In this document: piece by piece, positions 10,117 through 32,707 of the stretch
Layout: every line of letters starts with the position of its first letter
Numbering within the stretch: the stretch's first letter is position 1
Made by a program: the position numbers and the translations under genes
Assembly (NCBI GenBank): GCA_005772955.1
Contig: SXID01000024.1
Coordinates: 1-45,209 of the forward strand
DNA length: 45,209 nt
Direction of reading: 5' to 3'
Source: Planctomycetia bacterium
Lineage (GTDB): Bacteria > Planctomycetota > Planctomycetia > Gemmatales > Gemmataceae
The notes under the pieces: model-generated
Databases searched by the model: none
What the model saw: only the letters and a program-made list of their open reading frames with translations
What the model was told of the DNA's origin: nothing

Positions 10117-11925
10117 GTGAGTGACACTCCTCTGTCACAGATTTCACCCGCTTCCGTTTACACCGAGCGATTGGCCACGCGCAGGGCGACCGTCGCCGCG
10201 CTCGCGGCCCGTCTCGACACGCTCAGTTACGCGCGACTCGGTGCGTTCCTCGTTGTTCTCGTTGTCGCGGGGTTAGCGTTCGGCGCGCAACTCTATTCGC
10301 CGTGGATAACGCTGCTCCCCGCGTTCGCGTTCGTGTACTTCGTGGCGACGTTTGAAGCGGCTCGCGGGCAGAAGGCATGGGCCGAGCGCGCGGCGCGGTT
10401 CTACGCGAGCGGCCTCGACAGGCTCGCGGGCAAACCCTCCGGTGTGGGTGGTGGCGAACGGTTCGCGGACGTGACGCACCCGTATTCTGACGACCTCGAC
10501 CTGTTCGGCCCCAGCTCCGTATTCGAGCGCGTGACCGCCTGCCGCACACGCGCCGGGGAGGACATGCTCGCGGCGTGGCTGCTCAACCCGGCTTCGCCCG
10601 TGGAAGTAATCGCACGCCAAGAAGCGGTTGCCGACCTCGCGGCGCGGCTTGATTTGCGCGAAGCGGTCGCGGTGGCCGGCGCGGACACGCCCGCGGCGGA
10701 TTACCACCCGCTCGCGGAGTGGGGCACGACACCGCTCGATGCTCCGCCACGGTGGAAGTGGTGGACCGTGGAACTGCTCGGTTTGCTGAACGTATTCGCG
10801 TGGTTCGGGTGGTTCTTCATTGGTACCTCGGCGCTACCGGTACTTGCGTTTGGCTTGCCATCGCTCGCCATCGCGCTACCGCTGATGGCGTGGTCGCGGA
10901 AGGTGCTCAAGCCACTCGACCGCGCGGCCGAGAACCTCTCGTTGTTCGAGGCGGTACTCAGCCGGCTCGAACGCGAAGCGTTCACCGCGCCGCGCCTTAA
11001 AGAACTGCAAGCCGCGATGCGGGCCGACGGGTTCGCCGCCGCGGAACAGATCCGGCAACTCCGCGTGCTGCTCGACGGGTACAACGCGCGGCGGAACGCG
11101 TTCTTCATCCCGGTCGCGGTGCTGCGCATCTGGAACGTGCGGTTCGCGTTCAAGTTGGAAGCGTGGCGCGCACGCTCCGGTCCCGCGATCGCGCAGTGGC
11201 TGCGCGCCATCGGCGAAGCGGAATCGCTGTCGTCGCTCGCGGGCTACGCCTACGAGAACCCGACCGACATTTTCCCCACTGTCGAGAATGGTCCGGTGCG
11301 GCTCGCGGCGGTTGGCATCGGGCACCCGCTGATCCCAGCGGAGAAGTGCGTTCGCAACGACGTGACGCTTGGCGGCGAGGGCGGGCCGCGTGTGCTGATC
11401 GTGAGCGGGTCGAACATGTCCGGCAAGAGCACGCTGTTGCGCGCGGTCGGCGTGAACGCGGTTCTGGCGCTCGCCGGCGGCGTGGTTCGCGCAACGAGTT
11501 TCACACTCACGCCACTCGCACTCGGCGCGACGATGCGAGTTCAGGACTCCCTTCAAGAAGGGCGGTCGCGGTTCTTCGCGGAAGTCACGAAGGTGCGACT
11601 CTTGCTCGACATCGCAACCCGCGAAGGCGGCCCGCCTCTACTCTTCCTACTCGATGAACTATTCGCGGGGACGAACTCGGCGGACCGCGTTGCGGGTGCG
11701 GAAGGCGTAACACGCGCACTGCTCGCGGCCGGCGCGATCGGCTTCGTGACGACACACGACCTGAGCCTGACGGCGGTAACCGATGCGATCCCCGGAGCCG
11801 CGAACGTTCACTTCTGCGACGGCTTCGCAGGTGGCGAACTGAAGTTCGACTACACGATGCGCGGGGGGGTGGTACCGCATGGCAACGGCCTCGCGCTCAT
11901 GCGCGCCGTCGGACTGAAAGTGTGA
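10117..11925 (+). CDS. Membrane-anchored MutS domain V-like ATPase
   Basis: 602 residues from a GTG at 10117. Two hydrophobic segments near 41-58 and 61-78 and a second pair around 216-262 predict a membrane protein, unlike true MutS. The C-terminal half has a MutS-type ATPase: Walker A GSNMSGKST (431-439), a Q-loop-like MRVQDSLQEGRSRFFAEV segment, Walker B LLFLLDELFAGTNSADR (D513, E514) and a TTHD switch histidine. MutS mismatch-recognition and connector domains are absent; a lever-like helical region lies between. This layout matches the 'DNA mismatch repair protein MutS-related' proteins of Bacteroidetes and planctomycetes. Its role is unknown, and mismatch repair is unlikely. Confidence 0.85.
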   Translation: MSDTPLSQISPASVYTERLATRRATVAALAARLDTLSYARLGAFLVVLVVAGLAFGAQLYSPWITLLPAFAFVYFVATFEAARGQKAWAERAARFYASGLDRLAGKPSGVGGGERFADVTHPYSDDLDLFGPSSVFERVTACRTRAGEDMLAAWLLNPASPVEVIARQEAVADLAARLDLREAVAVAGADTPAADYHPLAEWGTTPLDAPPRWKWWTVELLGLLNVFAWFGWFFIGTSALPVLAFGLPSLAIALPLMAWSRKVLKPLDRAAENLSLFEAVLSRLEREAFTAPRLKELQAAMRADGFAAAEQIRQLRVLLDGYNARRNAFFIPVAVLRIWNVRFAFKLEAWRARSGPAIAQWLRAIGEAESLSSLAGYAYENPTDIFPTVENGPVRLAAVGIGHPLIPAEKCVRNDVTLGGEGGPRVLIVSGSNMSGKSTLLRAVGVNAVLALAGGVVRATSFTLTPLALGATMRVQDSLQEGRSRFFAEVTKVRLLLDIATREGGPPLLFLLDELFAGTNSADRVAGAEGVTRALLAAGAIGFVTTHDLSLTAVTDAIPGAANVHFCDGFAGGELKFDYTMRGGVVPHGNGLALMRAVGLKV

Positions 11926-14792: not shown

Positions 14793-16088
14793 TTAGATCA
14801 GTTCTTCGACCTTGTTGCGGTCGTCGAGGATGTACATCGGGCGGCCGGCGCCGTTCGGGAACGTGTAGCCCGCGTCGATGCCCATCGCGCCGTAGATCGT
14901 GCTGAGCAGGTGCGACGGCTTGTACGGCCGGTCTTTCGGGTACTCGCCCTTCGCGGAACTCGTGCCGATCGCCTGACCCATCTTCAAGCCGCCACCGGCG
15001 ATCATCGCGCCCATCACCGGCGACCAGTGGTCGCGACCGCCACCGTCCTGATTGTTGATCTTCGGCGTGCGGCCGAACTCGCCCCACATCACCGTCACCA
15101 CATCGTCCTGCATCCCGCGGTCGTGTAGGTCGTTGATCAGGTTTGCGATGCCGCGGTCCACCTGCGGCAGCATCCGCTTGAGTTCCTTGAAGTTACCCGA
15201 GTGCGTGTCCCACCCGCCGATGGAGAGCGTCACACACCCGACGCCGGCTTCGACGAGACGGCGAGCGGTGAGGAACTGCTCGACGCCCTTGTAGCGGTCG
15301 CGAGTCTTCGGGTCTTCGTTCTTGAGGTCGAGCGCGCGGCGAACGTTGCCCGAGGCGATCATGTCGAACGCGCGACCGGTGAACGAGTCCATGCCCTTCA
15401 TGGCGCCGCTGGCGTCGATCTCGCGGCGCGCCGTGTCGAACTTGCCAAGCAGGTCTTTGCGGTCGTCCATGCGGTCGCCGGTGACGCCGCTAGCGAGCCG
15501 GAGGTTTTCCATCCCGGCGCCGCTCGGCGTGAACGGCCGGTGCGCGACGCCGAGGTAACCCGGCTCGGTGCCCATGCTACCGCCACCGCGGAGCGACACG
15601 AACGGCGGCACGTCGTTGGCGCTGCCGCTACGGAGTTTCGAGATCACGGAGCCGAAACTCGGGTGCGACGCGATCCGGTTCGTGTTCTCGCTGTAACCGG
15701 TGCTGACGAGCGAGTCGGAGTGTTCGTCAACGGAGATGAGCGAGCGGACGCAGGCCAGTTTGTCCCACATGCGGGCTTGCAGCGGCATGTGTTCGCAGAT
15801 TTGCACGCCGGGCACGTTGGTCTTGATCGGGTTGAACTCGCCGCGGAACTCCATCGGCGCTTCGGGCTTGAGGTCGTACATGTCCATGTGGGACGGCCCA
15901 CCGGGCAGGTAGATCATGATTGCCGCTTTCTGCGGCGTCGGCTTCACGGTGGTGGCCGGGTCTTGCGCGGCCTTGAGCCTGAGCATGTCGGCGAGCGTCA
16001 GCCCGGCCCCGAACGCCCCGAGTTGCAGGAAGTTACGGCGGCTTACGTTGTCGCAATACCGTTGCGAGTTGCCCCAGAAAGTCAGCAT
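14793..16088 (-). CDS. DUF1501 domain protein with Tat signal
   Basis: 431 residues. The twin-arginine signal is SRRNFLQLGAFGAGLTLADM (from residue 16). The DUF1501 signatures follow: KAAIMIYLPGGPSHMDMYD, VPGVQICEHMPLQARMWDKL, LVSTGYSENTN and GGWDTHSGNFKELKRMLPQ. VTVMWGEFGRTPKINNQDGGGRDHW is also present. The family belongs to the alkaline-phosphatase/sulfatase superfamily, is exported, and is abundant in planctomycetes, often with DUF1549/DUF1553 partners. No partner of that type is intact here. The actual substrate is unknown. Confidence 0.93.
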   Translation of the reverse strand: MLTFWGNSQRYCDNVSRRNFLQLGAFGAGLTLADMLRLKAAQDPATTVKPTPQKAAIMIYLPGGPSHMDMYDLKPEAPMEFRGEFNPIKTNVPGVQICEHMPLQARMWDKLACVRSLISVDEHSDSLVSTGYSENTNRIASHPSFGSVISKLRSGSANDVPPFVSLRGGGSMGTEPGYLGVAHRPFTPSGAGMENLRLASGVTGDRMDDRKDLLGKFDTARREIDASGAMKGMDSFTGRAFDMIASGNVRRALDLKNEDPKTRDRYKGVEQFLTARRLVEAGVGCVTLSIGGWDTHSGNFKELKRMLPQVDRGIANLINDLHDRGMQDDVVTVMWGEFGRTPKINNQDGGGRDHWSPVMGAMIAGGGLKMGQAIGTSSAKGEYPKDRPYKPSHLLSTIYGAMGIDAGYTFPNGAGRPMYILDDRNKVEELI

Positions 16089-22411: not shown

Positions 22412-23950
22412 ATGTCAATCCGCGTTCCGCTCTTCGCTGTTCTCATGCTCGCTCTTGCCATCGACTCCGTGAACTCGCAGCCGGTTGCCGCGCCCGCGCC
22501 GAAGTTGGTCGAGTTCGCGTTCCACCGTGACCACATCATTGGCACGTCGCTCGACCTGAATGTTGTCGTGCCCGACGAAGCCACGGCGGAGGAACTGGAA
22601 CTGACCGTGCTCAACGAGATTGAGCGCCTGCGAAAAATCTTCAGCACCTACGACGCCACGAGCGAGATCAGCAAACTGAACGGCACGCGCGAACCGGTGA
22701 AGGTGTCGGGAGACATGGCCGAAGTTCTGGAGCGGCACGAGGTGTGGCAACGGAAGTCCGATGGCGCGTTCAACGGTCAGGTGGGCGAACTCATTCGCGT
22801 GTGGAAGGACGGCGAGAGGGTCAACTGCGTACCGGACGCGACCACGCTCGACCGCATCGCGGCCGAATTGAAGAAGCCGGGCTGGACGCTTGACGCGAAC
22901 ACCAACACCGTGACGCGCCTCAACGACCAACCCTTAAACCTGAACGCGGTCGCGAAAGGCTTCATCATTCGGAAGGCCGCGCACAAGGCACTGAAGAAAC
23001 ACCCGACCGTGCGCGGGTTGCTGGTCAACTTGGGCGGGGACATCTTCGCATGGGGTTCGCCGCCGAGCAGCACGAGCGGCTGGGCCGTCGGCATCCAAGA
23101 TCCATTCAGTCACTTCGACAACGCGGCCCCGCTCATCGGTTTGCGTCTCAACGATCAGGCGGTTGCCACCAGCGGCGGTTACCAGCGGTTCTACACCATC
23201 GACGGCAAACGCTACTCGCACATCTTCGACCCGCGGACCGGGCGCCCGGCGGAGGGCGTCGCGAGCGCAACCGTGGTCGCGAACGACAACACCACCGCGA
23301 ACGCACTCGCGACCACGCTCTGCGTGCTGTCGCCGCAGGAAGGGTTGAGGTTGGTCGCGGGCGTGCCGGGCGCGGAGTGTCTCATCATCGCGCCGGACGG
23401 CAAGCAGTTCCGCAGCACCGGGTTGAAGGCGTTCGAGGTGAGTCCGGTTCGCACGCTCGCGCCACAGGAGAAGAAGGACGAACCGAAAGCCGCGGCGTGG
23501 CCGAAAAGTTATCAGGTAACGGTCGCGGTGGAACTGCCGCGGATCGATTCCAAGCGTTACCGCCGGCCGTACACCGCAATCTGGATCGAAGACGACAAGG
23601 GCAAAGCGGTCCGCACGCTCGCGGTCTGGGGCAACGCCCCGAAGTACCTCAAAGACCTCAACGACTGGTGGAGGATTGGCAAAGGCGACGCGGACCTCGT
23701 GAAAGCGGTAACTCGCGCGACCCGCGGCCCGGGGAAGTACGATCTCGCCTGGGACGGCAAGGATGATAAGGGGAACGCGCTGTCCCAGGGCACGTACACG
23801 GTTCGCGTCGAGGTTCACCGCGAGTTTGGCGAACACCTGCGGCAATCGGGCAAGATCGAGTGCAAGGACCGCCCAGCGACAACAAAACTGGAGAAGAACG
23901 CGGAGACGGCCGAGACGGTGGTGGACTTCAAGGAGGCGAAGAAGAAGTAA
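22412..23950 (+). CDS. ApbE-type FAD:protein FMN transferase fused to DUF2271
   Basis: 512 residues with a signal peptide (VPLFAVLMLALAIDSVNS). The ApbE domain (about 30-350) has TSLDLNVVVPDEATAEE, STYDATSEISKLNG, LNAVAKGFIIRKAAH, VNLGGDIFAWG and the metal-binding Thr/Asp region IDGKRYSHIFDPRTGRP. ApbE proteins attach FMN to threonines of exported redox proteins, such as NqrB/C and RnfD/G. The C-terminal 150 residues are a DUF2271-like beta domain: YTAIWIEDDKGKAVRTLAVW and LNDWWRIGK, with a FlgD-like GPGKYDLAWDGKDDKGN. DUF2271 often occurs next to PepSY proteins, and the next gene is one. Confidence 0.88.
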   Translation: MSIRVPLFAVLMLALAIDSVNSQPVAAPAPKLVEFAFHRDHIIGTSLDLNVVVPDEATAEELELTVLNEIERLRKIFSTYDATSEISKLNGTREPVKVSGDMAEVLERHEVWQRKSDGAFNGQVGELIRVWKDGERVNCVPDATTLDRIAAELKKPGWTLDANTNTVTRLNDQPLNLNAVAKGFIIRKAAHKALKKHPTVRGLLVNLGGDIFAWGSPPSSTSGWAVGIQDPFSHFDNAAPLIGLRLNDQAVATSGGYQRFYTIDGKRYSHIFDPRTGRPAEGVASATVVANDNTTANALATTLCVLSPQEGLRLVAGVPGAECLIIAPDGKQFRSTGLKAFEVSPVRTLAPQEKKDEPKAAAWPKSYQVTVAVELPRIDSKRYRRPYTAIWIEDDKGKAVRTLAVWGNAPKYLKDLNDWWRIGKGDADLVKAVTRATRGPGKYDLAWDGKDDKGNALSQGTYTVRVEVHREFGEHLRQSGKIECKDRPATTKLEKNAETAETVVDFKEAKKK

Positions 23951-27500: not shown

Positions 27501-27596
27501 AGTGCGCGCTGAACGACCGTGGCCGAATTGAAGTCAATACATGGTCACGTTAATCGTTGCTCGTCCGCACGTCTCCACGGTCGTTCAGCGCGCACT
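27501..27596. repeat. Perfect 22-bp inverted repeat spanning the end of the FG-GAP gene
   Basis: The 22 bases at 27501-27522 are the exact reverse complement of 27575-27596. The right arm contains the last codons and stop of the FG-GAP gene (Ser-Ala-Arg-stop) plus 10 bases beyond. The loop of 52 bases is AT-richer. It can fold as a long-looped hairpin after that gene, or mark an inverted duplication. Confidence 0.8.
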
Positions 27597-28829
27597 CTGA
27601 TTCCAATAGATCTTGCAATTCCCGGTCGCTCTTCCCACCGCGATGATGTCGGGCTTGCCGTCGCCGTCGAGGTCGGCCACGGTCAGGTCTTCGACCGCCA
27701 CGCCTCCATCGTCCAGAATCGTTCGCTCCCACTTCGCGCCCTTGCCGTCGGTGCATTTGTAAACGCGCACCCCGCGGCGCTCCTGGAACGTGTCGCCCAT
27801 CTTCGGGTTCGGGTCGTCGCGCACGCCGATGACGAGTTCGTTGGCGCCGTCGCCGTCGAGGTCCGCGAACCACACACCGTGGCCCCAGCGCAGTTGCTCG
27901 TCGATGACGTGCCGCTCCCACAGTTTTCCGGCTTCCTTCGGCGGCGTGTACGTCACCACTTGGTTGCCGTGCCACGGCTCGATGGTCGCGATGACCGGCT
28001 TGTTCACGCCGACGTTACTCATCTTGATTTCACTCGCGCCGCGATTGCCTTTCGGATTTGCCTGGTTCCCCTCCCCGGTCTTGGTTGTTACCCACTTGTC
28101 CTTTTCGCGGGCGATGATGTGAACGCCGTCGTAGCTCGTCACCAAGATTCCGAACACGTGTGTACCGCTGAACAGCGGCCAGAAGTTGTGGCACACGTTC
28201 AGCTCCTCCGACAGCACCTGCGTCTTCCAGTTCTCCTTCTTCTCCGGCTCTTTCGCGGGCACCTTCAGCGCGACGACGCGGACCGGTTTGCCGTCGGTCC
28301 ACAAACCCTTCGCGCTCGACCCGCGGCCCATCAGCGGCACGTGAACGATCTCGGGTTTGCCGTCACCGTCGATGTCGAAACAGCGGACGCGGTGAACCGT
28401 CGGCTCGTCGCACGGTAGCTCGTGCATGGTCCATTCGTCAGTGACGACCTTGCCGCGTTTCAACCAGACGAGTTGCGCCGGGTTCGCGGTGTCGAACGGC
28501 TTCCACGCCGCACCCACGACCAACTCCGGTAAGCCGTCAGCGTCGATGTCGATGGCCGCGATGCACACGTTGTCCGGTCGCGTCTTGCCGTCGAGGATGA
28601 CGTGCTTCTTCCACGCGCTGTCCGCTTTGCCGGGGTTCTGATACCACACGATCTTGTGTTGATCGACAACGACGATGTCGAGTTTCTTGTCGCCGTCGAT
28701 GTCCGCGGTGATGACCGCGTAGCCGATCTTCAGCCCGGTATCGATCTCTTGCGTTTTGAATTTGGGTAGGTCCGCCGCGAATACCGGGAGTGCGGACAGC
28801 GCGACGAACGCCGAGAAGAGGTAGCGCAT
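27585..28829 (-). CDS. Secreted FG-GAP/VCBS beta-propeller protein
   Basis: 414 residues with a signal peptide (FSAFVALSALPVFAAD). At least five calcium-binding Dx(D/N)xDG motifs occur at blade turns: ADIDGDKKLDIVVV, AIDIDADGLPELVVG, CFDIDGDGKPEIVHV, FADLDGDGANELVIG and VADLDGDGKPDIIAVG. This gives an integrin-alpha-like seven-blade propeller. Such proteins are exported and serve as adhesion or binding modules. The last residues lie inside an inverted repeat. Divergent from the TolQ-like gene. Confidence 0.87.
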   Translation of the reverse strand: MRYLFSAFVALSALPVFAADLPKFKTQEIDTGLKIGYAVITADIDGDKKLDIVVVDQHKIVWYQNPGKADSAWKKHVILDGKTRPDNVCIAAIDIDADGLPELVVGAAWKPFDTANPAQLVWLKRGKVVTDEWTMHELPCDEPTVHRVRCFDIDGDGKPEIVHVPLMGRGSSAKGLWTDGKPVRVVALKVPAKEPEKKENWKTQVLSEELNVCHNFWPLFSGTHVFGILVTSYDGVHIIAREKDKWVTTKTGEGNQANPKGNRGASEIKMSNVGVNKPVIATIEPWHGNQVVTYTPPKEAGKLWERHVIDEQLRWGHGVWFADLDGDGANELVIGVRDDPNPKMGDTFQERRGVRVYKCTDGKGAKWERTILDDGGVAVEDLTVADLDGDGKPDIIAVGRATGNCKIYWNQSAR

Positions 28830-28988: not shown

Positions 28989-29786
28989 ATGTTGGTACCC
29001 ACGTCTCACCGCCCGGCACGCGAGTGGCTGTTGCTGGTGATCGCGCTGGTGATTGTCGGGGGGTTCATCGCCCCACTGTGGCAACTTGTGGGCAACCCCG
29101 AGTCGCGAGAGGAACTCGCGGTCCGATGGACCCCGGAACGCCTCGCGCGACTGTTCCTCGGCTTCGAGCAGGTATTGTGCTACGTTTGCGCCGTGTGGGC
29201 GGCTCTCATTTTGCAAAGCCGGTATCGCGAGGTGTTGGGCCAGCGCCGTGCTTTCGGGATGGAACTGCTGCCGACCGACGAGGGCGCGCGGATTCTACCC
29301 GAAGACGCCCGCCCGCTGGCACGGAAAGTGGAGCAGGTGACCGCGGGGCGGCCGTTCGTGCTCGCGAACATGATCCGGCTTGGGCTGGGGAAATTCGCGG
29401 TGAGCAAGTCCGCGACCGACGTGGCGGAAGTGGTCCGCAACCAGGCCGATGTGGAGTTGTCGCGGCTGGTCACGGGGATGTCCACGGTGCAATACCTCAC
29501 GTGGGCGATCCCCGCAATCGGCTTCGTCGGCACAGTGCGCGGTCTCGGCGGCGCGTTCGGTGTGAACGATCCCGACATCGCGGAGTTCACCCGGCAGGCG
29601 AAGGACCAACTGAAGATCGCGTTCGACTGCACTCTCGTGGCGCTCGTGCTGAGTCTGGCGCTGATGTATTTCGTTCACATGGTTCAGCGTGCGGAGGAGA
29701 CGCTGGTCACGGACGCGCAGCAGTATTGTCAGGAGCACTTGCTACTGCGGTTGTACGATCCGTCGGCGGAACATGCGGGCGGGTGA
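28989..29786 (+). CDS. MotA/TolQ/ExbB-like proton-channel protein
   Basis: 265 residues from the ATG at 28989 (GAGGG upstream; an ATG at 28941 is also in frame). Four predicted helices lie at about 12-31, 56-76, 167-190 and 207-230. The last two carry the family signature: AIPAIGFVGTVRGLGGAFG (T182) and LKIAFDCTLVALVLSLALMY (T215), matching the pore-lining threonines of TolQ/ExbB. A 90-residue cytoplasmic loop separates helices 2 and 3, as in TolQ/MotA. It would form a pentamer around the single helices of a partner. The third gene downstream supplies such a helix, so this is probably an ion-driven motor subunit. Confidence 0.85.
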   Translation: MLVPTSHRPAREWLLLVIALVIVGGFIAPLWQLVGNPESREELAVRWTPERLARLFLGFEQVLCYVCAVWAALILQSRYREVLGQRRAFGMELLPTDEGARILPEDARPLARKVEQVTAGRPFVLANMIRLGLGKFAVSKSATDVAEVVRNQADVELSRLVTGMSTVQYLTWAIPAIGFVGTVRGLGGAFGVNDPDIAEFTRQAKDQLKIAFDCTLVALVLSLALMYFVHMVQRAEETLVTDAQQYCQEHLLLRLYDPSAEHAGG

Positions 29787-29847
29787 CAACCGTTTTCGTG
29801 GGTGATTTTGGTTTTCACTCACACGCGCACTCACACTCACACTACCT

Positions 29848-31083
29848 ATGCTCTGGTCCCGTAAGTTGCCCCCCGTTCACGACCGCGCGCGAGCGGTCGG
29901 CATCGATCTGACCGCGAGTCGCGTACTCGCGGAAGCCATCGGCGGGAAGTCGCGCGCAATCATCCTCAACGAGCCGGACGCGGAACTGGCACTCTTCATT
30001 TCCGGTGACCGCCGCACACCGGAAATCGGCCGCGCGGGGTTCGCGCTGTGTCGCAAGATGCCGCACGTCGTCTGCTCCAACTTCCTCCCGGCCATCGGGC
30101 AATCGCGTGAGTGGAAGATCGGCCGGCACACGCTCATCGCGGAAGCCGCGCTGAACCTCGTCTTCGAGAAGATTCGCGGCCCGATCGCGAACGAGTCCGA
30201 CGCCGTCGCGCTCGCGCTTCCGGTGTACCTCGGGCCGTCGCAGGTGACGCGTGTGGGGATCACCGCCGGACGCGCCAAACTTCCGCTAAAGGGGACCGCG
30301 GTCGGCGCGCTGGCGATCGCCGCGGATCGCGCCGCGACGCTCCTCGCCGGTAAGCCCGCGACGCCGGAAGCGGGCGCGGCCGATTGGGTGGTCCCGCTGC
30401 GTCCCGCGTCTGGTGGTCCCGGTGCGGTCGTCGTCATCGATGCGGACGAGTTTGCCGTGTCCGCCGTGCTCGTCTCCGTCGAGGGCGAAGTTGTTCGCGT
30501 GGTCGGTTCGGCTGTGTGGCCGCGACTGGCAGTGAAGGTGTGGAAAGACAAGCTCCTCGACGCGATCTCCGACCGGTGTGTGCGGCTGTGCCGGCGCGAC
30601 CCGCGTGACTCCGCAGAAGCCGAGCAGGCACTTTTTGAGCAACTCGACGAGGCGCTCGACAGCGCCCGCGCCGGGCAGCGCATTGGCCTCACGGTTCGCA
30701 CGGCGCACTGGTTCCAGGATGTGGTACAACAGCCGGAAGAGTTTGAATCGCACTGCGCCGCGCTGACTCGCCTCGCGGGCGATTCGGTGCGCGACTTCGT
30801 GAACGGTATCGGGCTGGCCGAACCGCCACGTGCGGTGTGGCTGACGGACGCCGCCAGCCGGTTGCCCGGCTTCGTGCGCGCGGTTCACGCGAACACGCCC
30901 GAAGGCACCGCGGTCGAGATTCTGCCGCCGAACGCGATCGCGCTGGCGGCGGCGGCGCTCGTGCCGCGCTGGCTCGCGGGCGACCTGCCCCGCGCGCACC
31001 TCGACAGTATGATCCCGCTGCCGAAGGATTCCGCCGCGCCGCCCGAAGCCGCGAAGAAGTCCGCGCCGCGCACCGGTGGCTGA
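29848..31083 (+). CDS. Divergent actin/Hsp70-fold protein
   Basis: 411 residues with no signal or membrane helix. Three motifs sit in the order expected of the actin/Hsp70 ATPase fold: AVGIDLTASRVLAEAI (phosphate-1-like, D20), GAVVVIDADEFAVSAVLVSV (phosphate-2-like, D198) and RAVWLTDAASRLPGF (adenosine-like, about 328-342). The usual DLGTT is DLTAS and the glycines of the adenosine loop are absent (TDAASRLP), so catalytic activity may be weak or lost. The gene begins 61 bases after the TolQ-like stop and ends 25 bases before the vWA gene. A role as assembly or control factor of the membrane complex is inferred. Confidence 0.65.
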   Translation: MLWSRKLPPVHDRARAVGIDLTASRVLAEAIGGKSRAIILNEPDAELALFISGDRRTPEIGRAGFALCRKMPHVVCSNFLPAIGQSREWKIGRHTLIAEAALNLVFEKIRGPIANESDAVALALPVYLGPSQVTRVGITAGRAKLPLKGTAVGALAIAADRAATLLAGKPATPEAGAADWVVPLRPASGGPGAVVVIDADEFAVSAVLVSVEGEVVRVVGSAVWPRLAVKVWKDKLLDAISDRCVRLCRRDPRDSAEAEQALFEQLDEALDSARAGQRIGLTVRTAHWFQDVVQQPEEFESHCAALTRLAGDSVRDFVNGIGLAEPPRAVWLTDAASRLPGFVRAVHANTPEGTAVEILPPNAIALAAAALVPRWLAGDLPRAHLDSMIPLPKDSAAPPEAAKKSAPRTGG

Positions 31084-31108
31084 TCTTGCTCGTGTGAGGA
31101 GGAACCCG

Positions 31109-32707
31109 ATGCGAGTCCGTCACAAACAGCCGACGCTGGTCAGCATGTGGATGCTGGACGTGTTCTGCTGCGCGCTCGGCTGCGTCACGCTTCTGTTCCT
31201 CCTGAACAGCCGCATGGCTATCGACAGCGCGAAGGCCAACCGCGCCGCGCTGGTCGATCTGGAACACACCGGCAAGAAACTCGCGGCGGCACTGTCCGCA
31301 CTCGAATCGACCAAACTCAAACTCACAGACGAAGCAGTTGAGCGCGGGAAACTGGCCGCTTCGCTCACCGAACTCGAAGGCATTCGGCTCAAGCTCACGG
31401 ACGAATCGCGCCAGCTCGTGGACCAACTTCGGATCGCCCGCACCGAGCGCGACGATACTGGCCGCAAACTCGCCGTTGCACGCGACGAGACGAAAGTGGC
31501 TCAGGTACTACTCGACAAAACTCAGCTCGATCTCACCGCGACCGAGAAGAAGGCGGACGCGACCGCGAAAGAACTCGCCACCGCACGCGCCGAGATGACC
31601 GACGCGGACCTGCTGCTCAAGAAAAAGCAGCGGGACATCGAGTCTTTGCTGAAGAAGGACTTGGCAAGCGATGTGAAACTCGACAGCCTTCAGCGGCTCA
31701 TGCTCGCGAAGGATACCGAGCGGCTCGCGCTTGAGTCGCGCCTGACCGCAACGCGAAAGGAACTTACCGACCTCGACGCGCGGGTGCGTCTCACGCAGCG
31801 CGACCTCGATGCGCAACTCGCCGCGGCGCAAGCGGCGGCGAAAGCCGCGGCCGAGGAACTGGCGAACGCGCAAGCCGCCGCGAAGACCGCCGCCGCGGAC
31901 CTCGCGAACGCGAAAGCCGGGGCCGCCAAGACCGGCGACGAACTCGGCACCGCCCGTGCGCAGATCAAAGACCTCAGCAAGAAGATCGACGAAGCGAACG
32001 TCACCATCATCGACCTGCAAGGCGACAAGGCGAAACTGGCCGACAAGTACAACAAGTTCCAGAAGGAGAGCGAGTCGCGGTTCGCCGGCATCGCGATGAC
32101 CGGCACGAAGGTCGTGTTCCTCGTGGATATGTCCGGCAGCATGGGCAGGCGCGACCTGAAGACCCTCGACGGCACGAAGTGGCCGTTGGTCGTGGACACC
32201 GTGTGCAAGGTGATGCGGAGCATCTCCACACTGGAACAGTACCAAATCGTTGTGTTTTCGAGTTCGGCACAGTGGGTGTTCGGCAGCGGCGACTGGAGAA
32301 CGTTCGACGGCGAGAAGTCGGTAGCGAGCGTCAGCAGCGCGCTTCTCAAGATCAAACCGGAGAACGACACGAACATGTACTCGGCGTTCGAGAAGGCATT
32401 CGCCCTCCGCGCCACCGGGCTGGACACGATGTACCTCTTCTCCGACGGTCTTCCGACGAGCGGACCGGGGCTAACGGTGGCGCAGCAGAACGCGAACCCG
32501 CCGCTCTCGGAGTCCGATCAGGGCACGATTCTGGGCCGACACGTGCGCGACACGCTCGACCGCACCTGGAACCGCCCAGTCGCGGGCCAGTCGCGGGTCC
32601 GCATCAACGCAGTCGGATTCTACTTCGAGAGCGTGGAGGTCGGAGCGTTCCTCTGGGCGCTGGCACGCGACAACAACGGCAGTTTCGTCGGCATGTCGAA
32701 GCCTTGA
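31109..32707 (+). CDS. TolR/ExbD-like helix, coiled coil and von Willebrand A domain protein
   Basis: 532 residues with a very strong ribosome site (GAGGAGG). The short cytoplasmic start is followed by one helix, MWMLDVFCCALGCVTLLFLL (residues 13-32), with an aspartate at position 17, the place of the proton-carrying Asp of ExbD/TolR/MotB. Residues about 35-325 are Lys/Glu/Ala/Leu heptads, a long coiled coil. The C-terminal vWA domain has the complete MIDAS set: DMSGS (D340, S342, S344), T421 in NDTNMYSAF and D446 in FSDG. The vWA domain takes the place of the OmpA/periplasmic domain of classical stators. Confidence 0.88.
   Translation: MRVRHKQPTLVSMWMLDVFCCALGCVTLLFLLNSRMAIDSAKANRAALVDLEHTGKKLAAALSALESTKLKLTDEAVERGKLAASLTELEGIRLKLTDESRQLVDQLRIARTERDDTGRKLAVARDETKVAQVLLDKTQLDLTATEKKADATAKELATARAEMTDADLLLKKKQRDIESLLKKDLASDVKLDSLQRLMLAKDTERLALESRLTATRKELTDLDARVRLTQRDLDAQLAAAQAAAKAAAEELANAQAAAKTAAADLANAKAGAAKTGDELGTARAQIKDLSKKIDEANVTIIDLQGDKAKLADKYNKFQKESESRFAGIAMTGTKVVFLVDMSGSMGRRDLKTLDGTKWPLVVDTVCKVMRSISTLEQYQIVVFSSSAQWVFGSGDWRTFDGEKSVASVSSALLKIKPENDTNMYSAFEKAFALRATGLDTMYLFSDGLPTSGPGLTVAQQNANPPLSESDQGTILGRHVRDTLDRTWNRPVAGQSRVRINAVGFYFESVEVGAFLWALARDNNGSFVGMSKP

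Follow-up and report, generated by a model that had tools for sequence, protein, structure and literature searches.

What would a TolQ/ExbB-type channel do with a metal-binding head carried on a long coiled coil, and what part would a relative of Hsp70, encoded between the two, play in such a device? The question is raised by three consecutive genes in a 45,209-nucleotide stretch of DNA (the window: positions 1–45,209 of contig SXID01000024.1, assembly GCA_005772955.1) from a planctomycete of the family Gemmataceae, order Gemmatales. Gene 1 (28989–29786, plus strand; 265 amino acids from an ATG start) encodes a channel subunit of the MotA/TolQ/ExbB family with four hydrophobic segments. Gene 2 (29848–31083, plus strand; 411 amino acids) encodes a protein that resembles the nucleotide-binding domain (NBD) of Hsp70 and is without most of its nucleotide-site motifs. 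Gene 3 (31109–32707, plus strand; 532 amino acids from an ATG) encodes an Asp-bearing membrane helix followed by a coiled coil and a von Willebrand factor type A (vWA) domain. The three-part composition, the residues on which the parts would work and the co-occurrence of the genes are conserved across the order, and the coiled coil changes in length without losing its register. We consider it reasonably probable that the trio is a 5:2 proton motor of the TolQR/ExbBD/MotAB kind, in which a gene 3 homodimer would serve as an axle and carry force to an outer vWA head.

Three proteins and their conserved residues

In a Pfam scan gene 1 scored 33 bits for PF01618 (MotA_ExbB; cut-off 22.9). The hydropathy profile has segments at residues 13–31, 57–75, 174–192 (weak, 1.34) and 214–232, and 33 residues lie C-terminal of the last. 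Two threonines, T182 in GTVRG (29532–29534, plus strand) and T215 in CTLVAL (29631–29633, plus strand), were located by alignment of relatives and are invariant in 42/42 rows of our gene 1 alignment (A1, built without loci L039, L040, L042, L044, L050, L083, and L084). When the comparison was widened (here without L039, L083, and L084), threonine occupied both positions in 46/46 Gemmatales rows, in 3/3 rows from family f46 and 6/6 from families f58 and f30, and also in 6/6 cousin channels and 3/3 ExbB-like channels of the same genome. These are presumably pore threonines, a role that we carry over from TolQ/ExbB. An earlier, sequence-only reading of the locus had described gene 1 as a four-helix channel of this type with both pore threonines, and the Pfam match and the invariance of the two residues agree with that description. 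At five further PF01618 loci of the same genome, read by eye, the channel adjoins a short open reading frame (ORF) with an Asp-bearing helix, which suggests that gene 3 fills that place here. A second type of stator (L083, L084) has a long-tailed channel that is about 24–34% identical to gene 1 and is found in many Gemmatales; it stands beside two helix proteins, one of which has a long glycine-rich stretch in L083.

The gene 3 ORF opens at a GTG (31076). Its probable start is the ATG at 31109, because M12 is nearly invariant across the orthologs (37-row alignment A3); D17 and D340 counted from the ATG correspond to D28 and D351 counted from the GTG. The sole transmembrane helix (WMLDVFCCALGCVTLLFLL; 31148–31204, plus strand; hydropathy 2.24) carries the candidate proton-carrying Asp, D17 or D28 in the two numberings (31157–31159, plus strand), and the only other segment above 1.3, at 1.32, lies inside the vWA domain. 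Conservation of the helix Asp, residue 17 from the ATG, had been part of the earlier proposal and is borne out: the residue is Asp in 83/83 gene 3 proteins, as is the first Asp of the metal-ion-dependent adhesion site (MIDAS), with the proviso that 40 of these ORFs were picked by their MIDAS pattern (no locus failed). The helix is followed by a coiled-coil rod of about 280 residues (31223–32065, plus strand), delineated by the helices of an AlphaFold2 (AF2) model, by scarcity of proline and by steps in length.

The vWA domain (32105–32704, plus strand) scored 37.4 bits against PF13519 (VWA_2; cut-off 27). Its MIDAS is complete, as had been read from the sequence: D351, S353, S355, T432, and D457 (GTG numbering) are invariant in 37/37 rows of A3, the first being residue 340 from the ATG. 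In structure comparison the modeled domain matched the vWA domain of inter-alpha-inhibitor heavy chain 1 (VIA-align Z 17.1, root-mean-square deviation 2.6 over 160 residues). The Pfam scan of gene 3 returned VWA families only and no peptidoglycan-binding domain, and the sequence of the lone vWA domain had no match among PDB sequences. The AF2 monomer has a mean predicted local distance difference test score (pLDDT) of 71.7, up to 92 in places and below 50 at residues 275–326, with helices at 21–157 and 164–279; we relied on it chiefly for the vWA domain. Matches over the coiled coil in the Foldseek and VIA comparisons (Smc fragments; 5nnv_B, Z 14.4) were set aside as typical of long helices.

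The N terminus of gene 3 would lie inside and the vWA head outside. The position of the helix matches that in ExbD and TolR, whose C-terminal parts lie outside. The same orientation is indicated by genome G043, in which the trio search did not find genes 1 and 2. There a 669-residue Ser/Thr kinase (L150:4402–6411, minus strand) has a membrane helix, recognized by eye, and a terminal vWA domain of the gene 3 type (E = 3e-80); with the kinase inside and the vWA domain beyond the membrane helix, the head would be outside.

As a single sequence, gene 2 matched no Pfam family above cut-off. A 35-row family profile (alignment A2, without L040, L042, L050, L052, L055, L061, and L068) found DnaK as its best match in the PDB (E = 6e-15). 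The alignment covers stretches 16–224 and 273–368 of 393 profile positions and so spans both lobes, from which we conclude that the Hsp70-type fold is probably retained. Among the best 60 PDB rows, 59 are named as Hsp70-type proteins and one as a "putative uncharacterized protein." The profile also matches proteins across the phylum, and the eight of these that were fetched all have Hsp70 motifs. An AF2 model of gene 2 built from five rows had a mean pLDDT of 37.4 and was used in no structure search.

In the motif table, most of the nucleotide-site motifs are gone. We compared 40 trio gene 2 proteins with eight Hsp70 controls, taking the Hsp70 of the same genome (L125) as reference; counts rest on the four commonest residues per column. 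The catalytic Lys of Hsp70 is present in 0/40 gene 2 proteins (38 have Leu instead), as is the phosphate-1 Gly. In the phosphate-2 motif the first Gly is replaced by Asp and the Thr is gone in 40/40, and in the adenosine motif most proteins have other residues in place of Gly-Gly. The controls retain the motifs at every position that maps, whereas the three gene 2 proteins of f46 are likewise without the catalytic Lys and the Gly-rich motifs. The substrate-binding half of Hsp70/DnaK is absent, the 411-residue protein ending at about the end of the NBD. Gene 2 thus appears to be an Hsp70-NBD relative, probably an adaptor, for which ATP binding or hydrolysis in the manner of Hsp70 is unlikely. 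The earlier assignment to the actin/Hsp70 type stands; the suggestion that the protein might gate the channel does not fare as well where gating by ATP is meant, since most nucleotide motifs are gone.

Distribution of the trio and register of the rod

Among 102 Gemmatales genomes, gene 1 was found in 92, gene 2 in 90, gene 3 in 89, and all three in 86. Presence was taken from the listed profile matches for each gene, with limits of E = 1e-40 and E = 1e-32 in two of the searches, and distant channel paralogs and second fragments (for example in G064, G065, G079, G085, and G026) were left out of the tally; loci L037–L084 were oriented and start-trimmed by script. In 75 of the 102 genomes the genes are adjacent on one strand of one contig in the order 1-2-3. 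A grouping of this extent is not due to chance, and it accords with the sequence-only view of the three as a cassette conserved in order rather than as genes usually found apart. Eleven genomes have the three genes on more than one contig, some owing to contig breaks, as in G028, where gene 3 begins at a contig end. Dispersal is real at least in G099, where the trio is spread over contigs of 164, 159, and 207 kb and every gene is separated from the nearest contig end by more than 20 kb. No member of the trio was found in eight genomes, five of them less than 90% complete, and a partial trio was found in another eight, several being fragmented assemblies. For the most part, then, a genome has either the whole trio or none of it, and the trio is nearly core in Gemmatales. 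In G001, a single ORF of 674 amino acids comprises genes 1 and 2. In G026 (C1:3273040–3274252), gene 2 lies in three pieces with separate frames beside whole copies of genes 1 and 3, which reflects either sequencing errors or a decaying gene.

The distance from the helix Asp to the MIDAS Asp ranges from 214 to 375 residues and varies mostly in steps of 3.5. The 78 Gemmatales proteins have 40 distinct distances, and the strongest period is 3.50 (R 0.55). As high a signal was reached in 0/20,000 simulations at this period and in 0/300 at any period; kinship among the proteins means that events are shared, so these and the other register p values are too small. The period was first seen in a set of 37 proteins and was repeated in a second set of 40 (R 0.578), where the 16 lengths new to that set gave R 0.48 (p = 0.012). 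Lengths of genes 1 and 2 showed no 3.5 period. Between nearest relatives, 56 of 61 length differences fall within 0.5 of a multiple of 3.5 (3/7 expected), in pairs that share members and are not independent. Alignment of 25 close pairs gave 35 indel blocks, of which 28 are multiples of 7 and 14 are exactly 14 residues; blocks of 14, 7, and 28 predominate and 20 of the pairs differ by a single block, under aligner settings that favor few long gaps and again with shared members. Prolines number only seven in 8659 rod residues over 37 proteins, and the rod of the present protein has none. Judged by these lengths, the register of the rod is guarded. Because the length changes fit a continuous coiled coil, we read the indel pattern as favoring a continuous parallel rod. 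With a helix rise of 0.15 nm per residue, such a rod would, if fully extended, measure about 40 nm here and about 24–48 nm across species.

Kinship and the aligner settings both weaken this interpretation, and other points tell against it. Taken by themselves, the 16 new lengths have their best period at 3.90 (global p = 0.58). The AF2 monomer breaks the coiled coil at residues 158–163, and the head could fold back to the membrane. We weighed a hairpin rod of the kind suggested by that monomer and disfavor it: each change of length in one arm would have to be matched in the other, and a test for a period of 7 in the first set, with its 23 distinct distances, was negative (R 0.135, p = 0.61). 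Nearest-relative differences nevertheless lean to multiples of 7 (mean cosine 0.457), as those of a hairpin would. Finally, any coiled coil would be expected to guard its register when it gains or loses residues, and such indels are no proof of rotation.

Relatives and known systems

Relatives outside the order were sought by phylum searches that scored the best candidates per genome only (8, 4, or 3), so that some can be missed. In a 392-genome sample with three candidates each, genomes G190, G127, G224, G172, and G208 gave matches at E = 3e-36 or better that span the gene 3 helix, the rod and most of the vWA domain. In these five and in G152, where the vWA gene is truncated by the contig end, this gene overlaps a channel gene of the gene 1 type or comes immediately after it, with no gene 2 between them. 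The three f46 genomes fetched (L085, L086, L087) have a four-gene form, in which the channel and gene 2 are accompanied by two Asp-helix vWA genes that differ from each other. Family f46 is probably an anammox family, as two of the three genomes match PF18582, the hydrazine synthase alpha domain, with 99 and 91 bits. The same Pfam family is above cut-off six times in the genome that contains the window (G000; C212, C229, C140, C196, C266, C237) and so seems to be wider than anammox. That the cassette might mark lineages with inner compartments (Gemmatales, f46) is too poorly supported: f58 and f30 have the two-gene form, and PF18582 also exceeds its cut-off in the genome of the window. More distant are the two-partner stators of at least seven planctomycete loci (L088, L089, L092, L096, L100, L101, L103). 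They share with the cassette a homologous channel (E = 5e-29 to 2e-46) and helix–coiled-coil partners, whereas they have two Asp-helix partners with short end domains and no match to the vWA domain or to gene 2.

With ExbBD, TolQR, and MotAB the cassette has in common a PF01618 channel, two pore threonines and an Asp near the beginning of the one helix of the partner. It departs from them in the partner, which has a coiled coil and vWA domain instead of an ExbD/TolR or OmpA-type Pfam domain, and from ExbBD and TolQR also in the four hydrophobic segments of the channel subunit. MotA likewise has four hydrophobic segments.

The nearest published counterpart is a 2025 report (PMC12204202), the available text of which describes Asp transpore-helix vWA proteins beside tolQ-like genes, without tolR/exbD; these pairs were modeled with AlphaFold3, direct rotation in the pentamer was proposed, and their function is given as unknown. 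An Asp-helix vWA gene that adjoins a tolQ-like gene with no tolR/exbD is shared with the cassette, and the gene 1–gene 3 core is of this kind, a likeness by description and not by sequence comparison with the Idiomarina family. The sequence-only reading had regarded the system as unnamed; this no longer holds for the TolQ-like/vWA core, whereas the three-part composition was not found in print. According to the same available text, the reported pairs are predominantly heterologous vWA pairs, mainly from Proteobacteria and Verrucomicrobia; the cassette, in contrast, has one vWA gene (two in the f46 genomes fetched) and is near-core in Gemmatales. The string "hsp70" occurs zero times in PMC12204202, whereas the cassette has a pseudo-Hsp70 between the two genes and a register-locked rod. 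A paper on Hsp70 and vWA systems (PMC7159879) contains, in the part available, no word beginning with tolq or mota. New relative to that report are a third component derived from Hsp70, an axle encoded by one gene, the locked register of the rod and the near-core standing of the cassette in Gemmatales; none of these was found in the literature searched, which covered few subscription papers.

The surroundings of the trio were also inspected. The earlier impression that this is no defense island is upheld: for the three trio proteins PADLOC gave only a weak match of gene 1 to ZorA2 and coiled-coil matches of gene 3 to LmuB and JetC, and ten window proteins that were scanned included no defense family above cut-off. 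The LmuB (E = 6e-7) and JetC matches of gene 3 were rejected because they fall in the coiled coil, the best one running into the vWA domain. A divergent FG-GAP/propeller gene (27585–28829, minus strand) lies within 700 bp of the trio in 19/46 loci. It was considered as a fourth part, an integrin-like propeller to go with the MIDAS, and rejected, as an ortholog is also found in genomes without the trio, such as G058, G068, and G069. Among the loci inspected, only L037 and L046 have a DUF1559 gene downstream of gene 3. Elsewhere the window encodes a MutS-V ATPase-like protein (10117–11925, plus strand), a DUF1501 protein (14793–16088, minus strand) and an ApbE protein with a DUF2271/FlgD-like end (22412–23950, plus strand).

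A proposed proton motor and its rivals

In the proposed motor, five gene 1 subunits would form the pore and a gene 3 homodimer would thread its Asp helices through it as the axle. Protons passing D17 and T182/T215 would rotate the rod or push it; through its MIDAS metal the vWA head would hold on to a peptide or wall ligand, and force would be passed in this way from the energized membrane to the outer envelope. Gene 2, in the cytoplasm, would attach to the pentamer from the inside and act as a scaffold, plug or clutch without burning ATP; the fused ORF of G001 speaks for contact between genes 1 and 2. Envelope maintenance is our guess at the physiological role, prompted by the near-core status of the system in the order. 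The observations of the sequence-only reading are confirmed and its interpretation as a whole is partly supported; that ion flow moves an adhesion head, which it had likewise supposed, is an inference. The most detailed version of the proposal, a near-core envelope proton motor of Gemmatales with a register-locked rod as axle, an integrin-like MIDAS head and an ATP-less Hsp70 clutch or scaffold, its head re-used on a Ser/Thr kinase in one genus, is put forward tentatively and with less than even confidence.

Several observations weigh against a motor of this design. Rotation has never been directly observed for the known 5:2 motors, according to the available part of PMC9389320. Gene 3 had no match to PF02472 (ExbD/TolR) at E = 1, and the gene 1 profile found no solved structure among PDB sequences at E = 0.1 or better. 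The charges flanking the gene 3 helix, +3 before and +2 after, leave its topology unsettled. The fusion in G001 is a single case with an internal Met present. Some nucleotide-site residues remain in gene 2, namely the Asp of phosphate-1 (34/40) and of phosphate-2 (35/40) and the second phosphate-1 Thr (13/40).

The main rival is a sensor made from the same parts, in which the vWA head would read the wall or outer membrane, the rod would signal to a gated pore and the pseudo-Hsp70 would relay the signal into the cytoplasm. We regard it as unlikely, yet to be taken seriously. The kinase of G043 uses the same type of vWA domain as its outer part where genes 1 and 2 were not found, gene 2 is without most nucleotide-site motifs, as adaptors are, and a rigid rod can convey signals as well as torque. 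A sensor would not, however, account so readily for the pore threonines and Asp of the energy-converting relatives, all of which are kept; relatives with that arrangement are held to be ion-driven motors (PMC9389320, in the part available).

Other arrangements of the same genes have much less in their favor. Gene 3 might instead clip to the outside of the channel as a transducer of the TolA/TonB kind, with an unlinked ExbD/TolR protein filling the pore. A vWA family with an SHLS motif and linked tolR-like genes does exist in the Planctomycetes–Verrucomicrobia–Chlamydiae group, as the available text of PMC12204202 describes; the cassette, however, contains no ExbD/TolR gene, gene 3 itself has the Asp in 83/83 proteins and none of the 37 checked for SHLS has the motif, which makes a transducer very unlikely. 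We think it equally improbable that gene 2 is an independent passenger and the machine consists of genes 1 and 3 only. Families f58 and f30 do have genes 1 and 3 with no gene 2 between them, and the best gene 2 matches of the f58 genomes G208 and G172 keep Hsp70 motifs and lie away from the pair. Against this, gene 2 is kept with the pair in 86/102 Gemmatales, also when the genes are scattered, is present in the three f46 genomes fetched and shares a reading frame with gene 1 in G001. An anti-phage system like Zorya is the least probable of these readings, close to dismissal. It is suggested by a PADLOC match of gene 1 to ZorA2 that is weak (E = 5.5e-4, 17 bits), and ZorAB, as described in the available text of PMC11890865, shares with the cassette a PF01618-type channel and a helix partner. 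The cassette differs from ZorAB in having neither the cytoplasmic tail bundle, gene 1 being without the long ZorA tail, nor a peptidoglycan-binding domain in gene 3. ZorC, ZorD, and ZorE were not seen, PADLOC having covered the three trio proteins only. The near-core distribution in the order also argues against Zorya, as does the fact that most loci keep no effector-like gene beside the trio.

If the proton-motor reading is true, the family of proton motors gains a member whose axle is a homodimer of one vWA protein and which includes a pseudoenzyme descended from Hsp70. Its natural rod lengths form a heptad-step series and would offer a measurable handle on the angular phase between pore and head. 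Gemmatales envelopes are unusual, and the trio would be a conserved force or sensing device within them.

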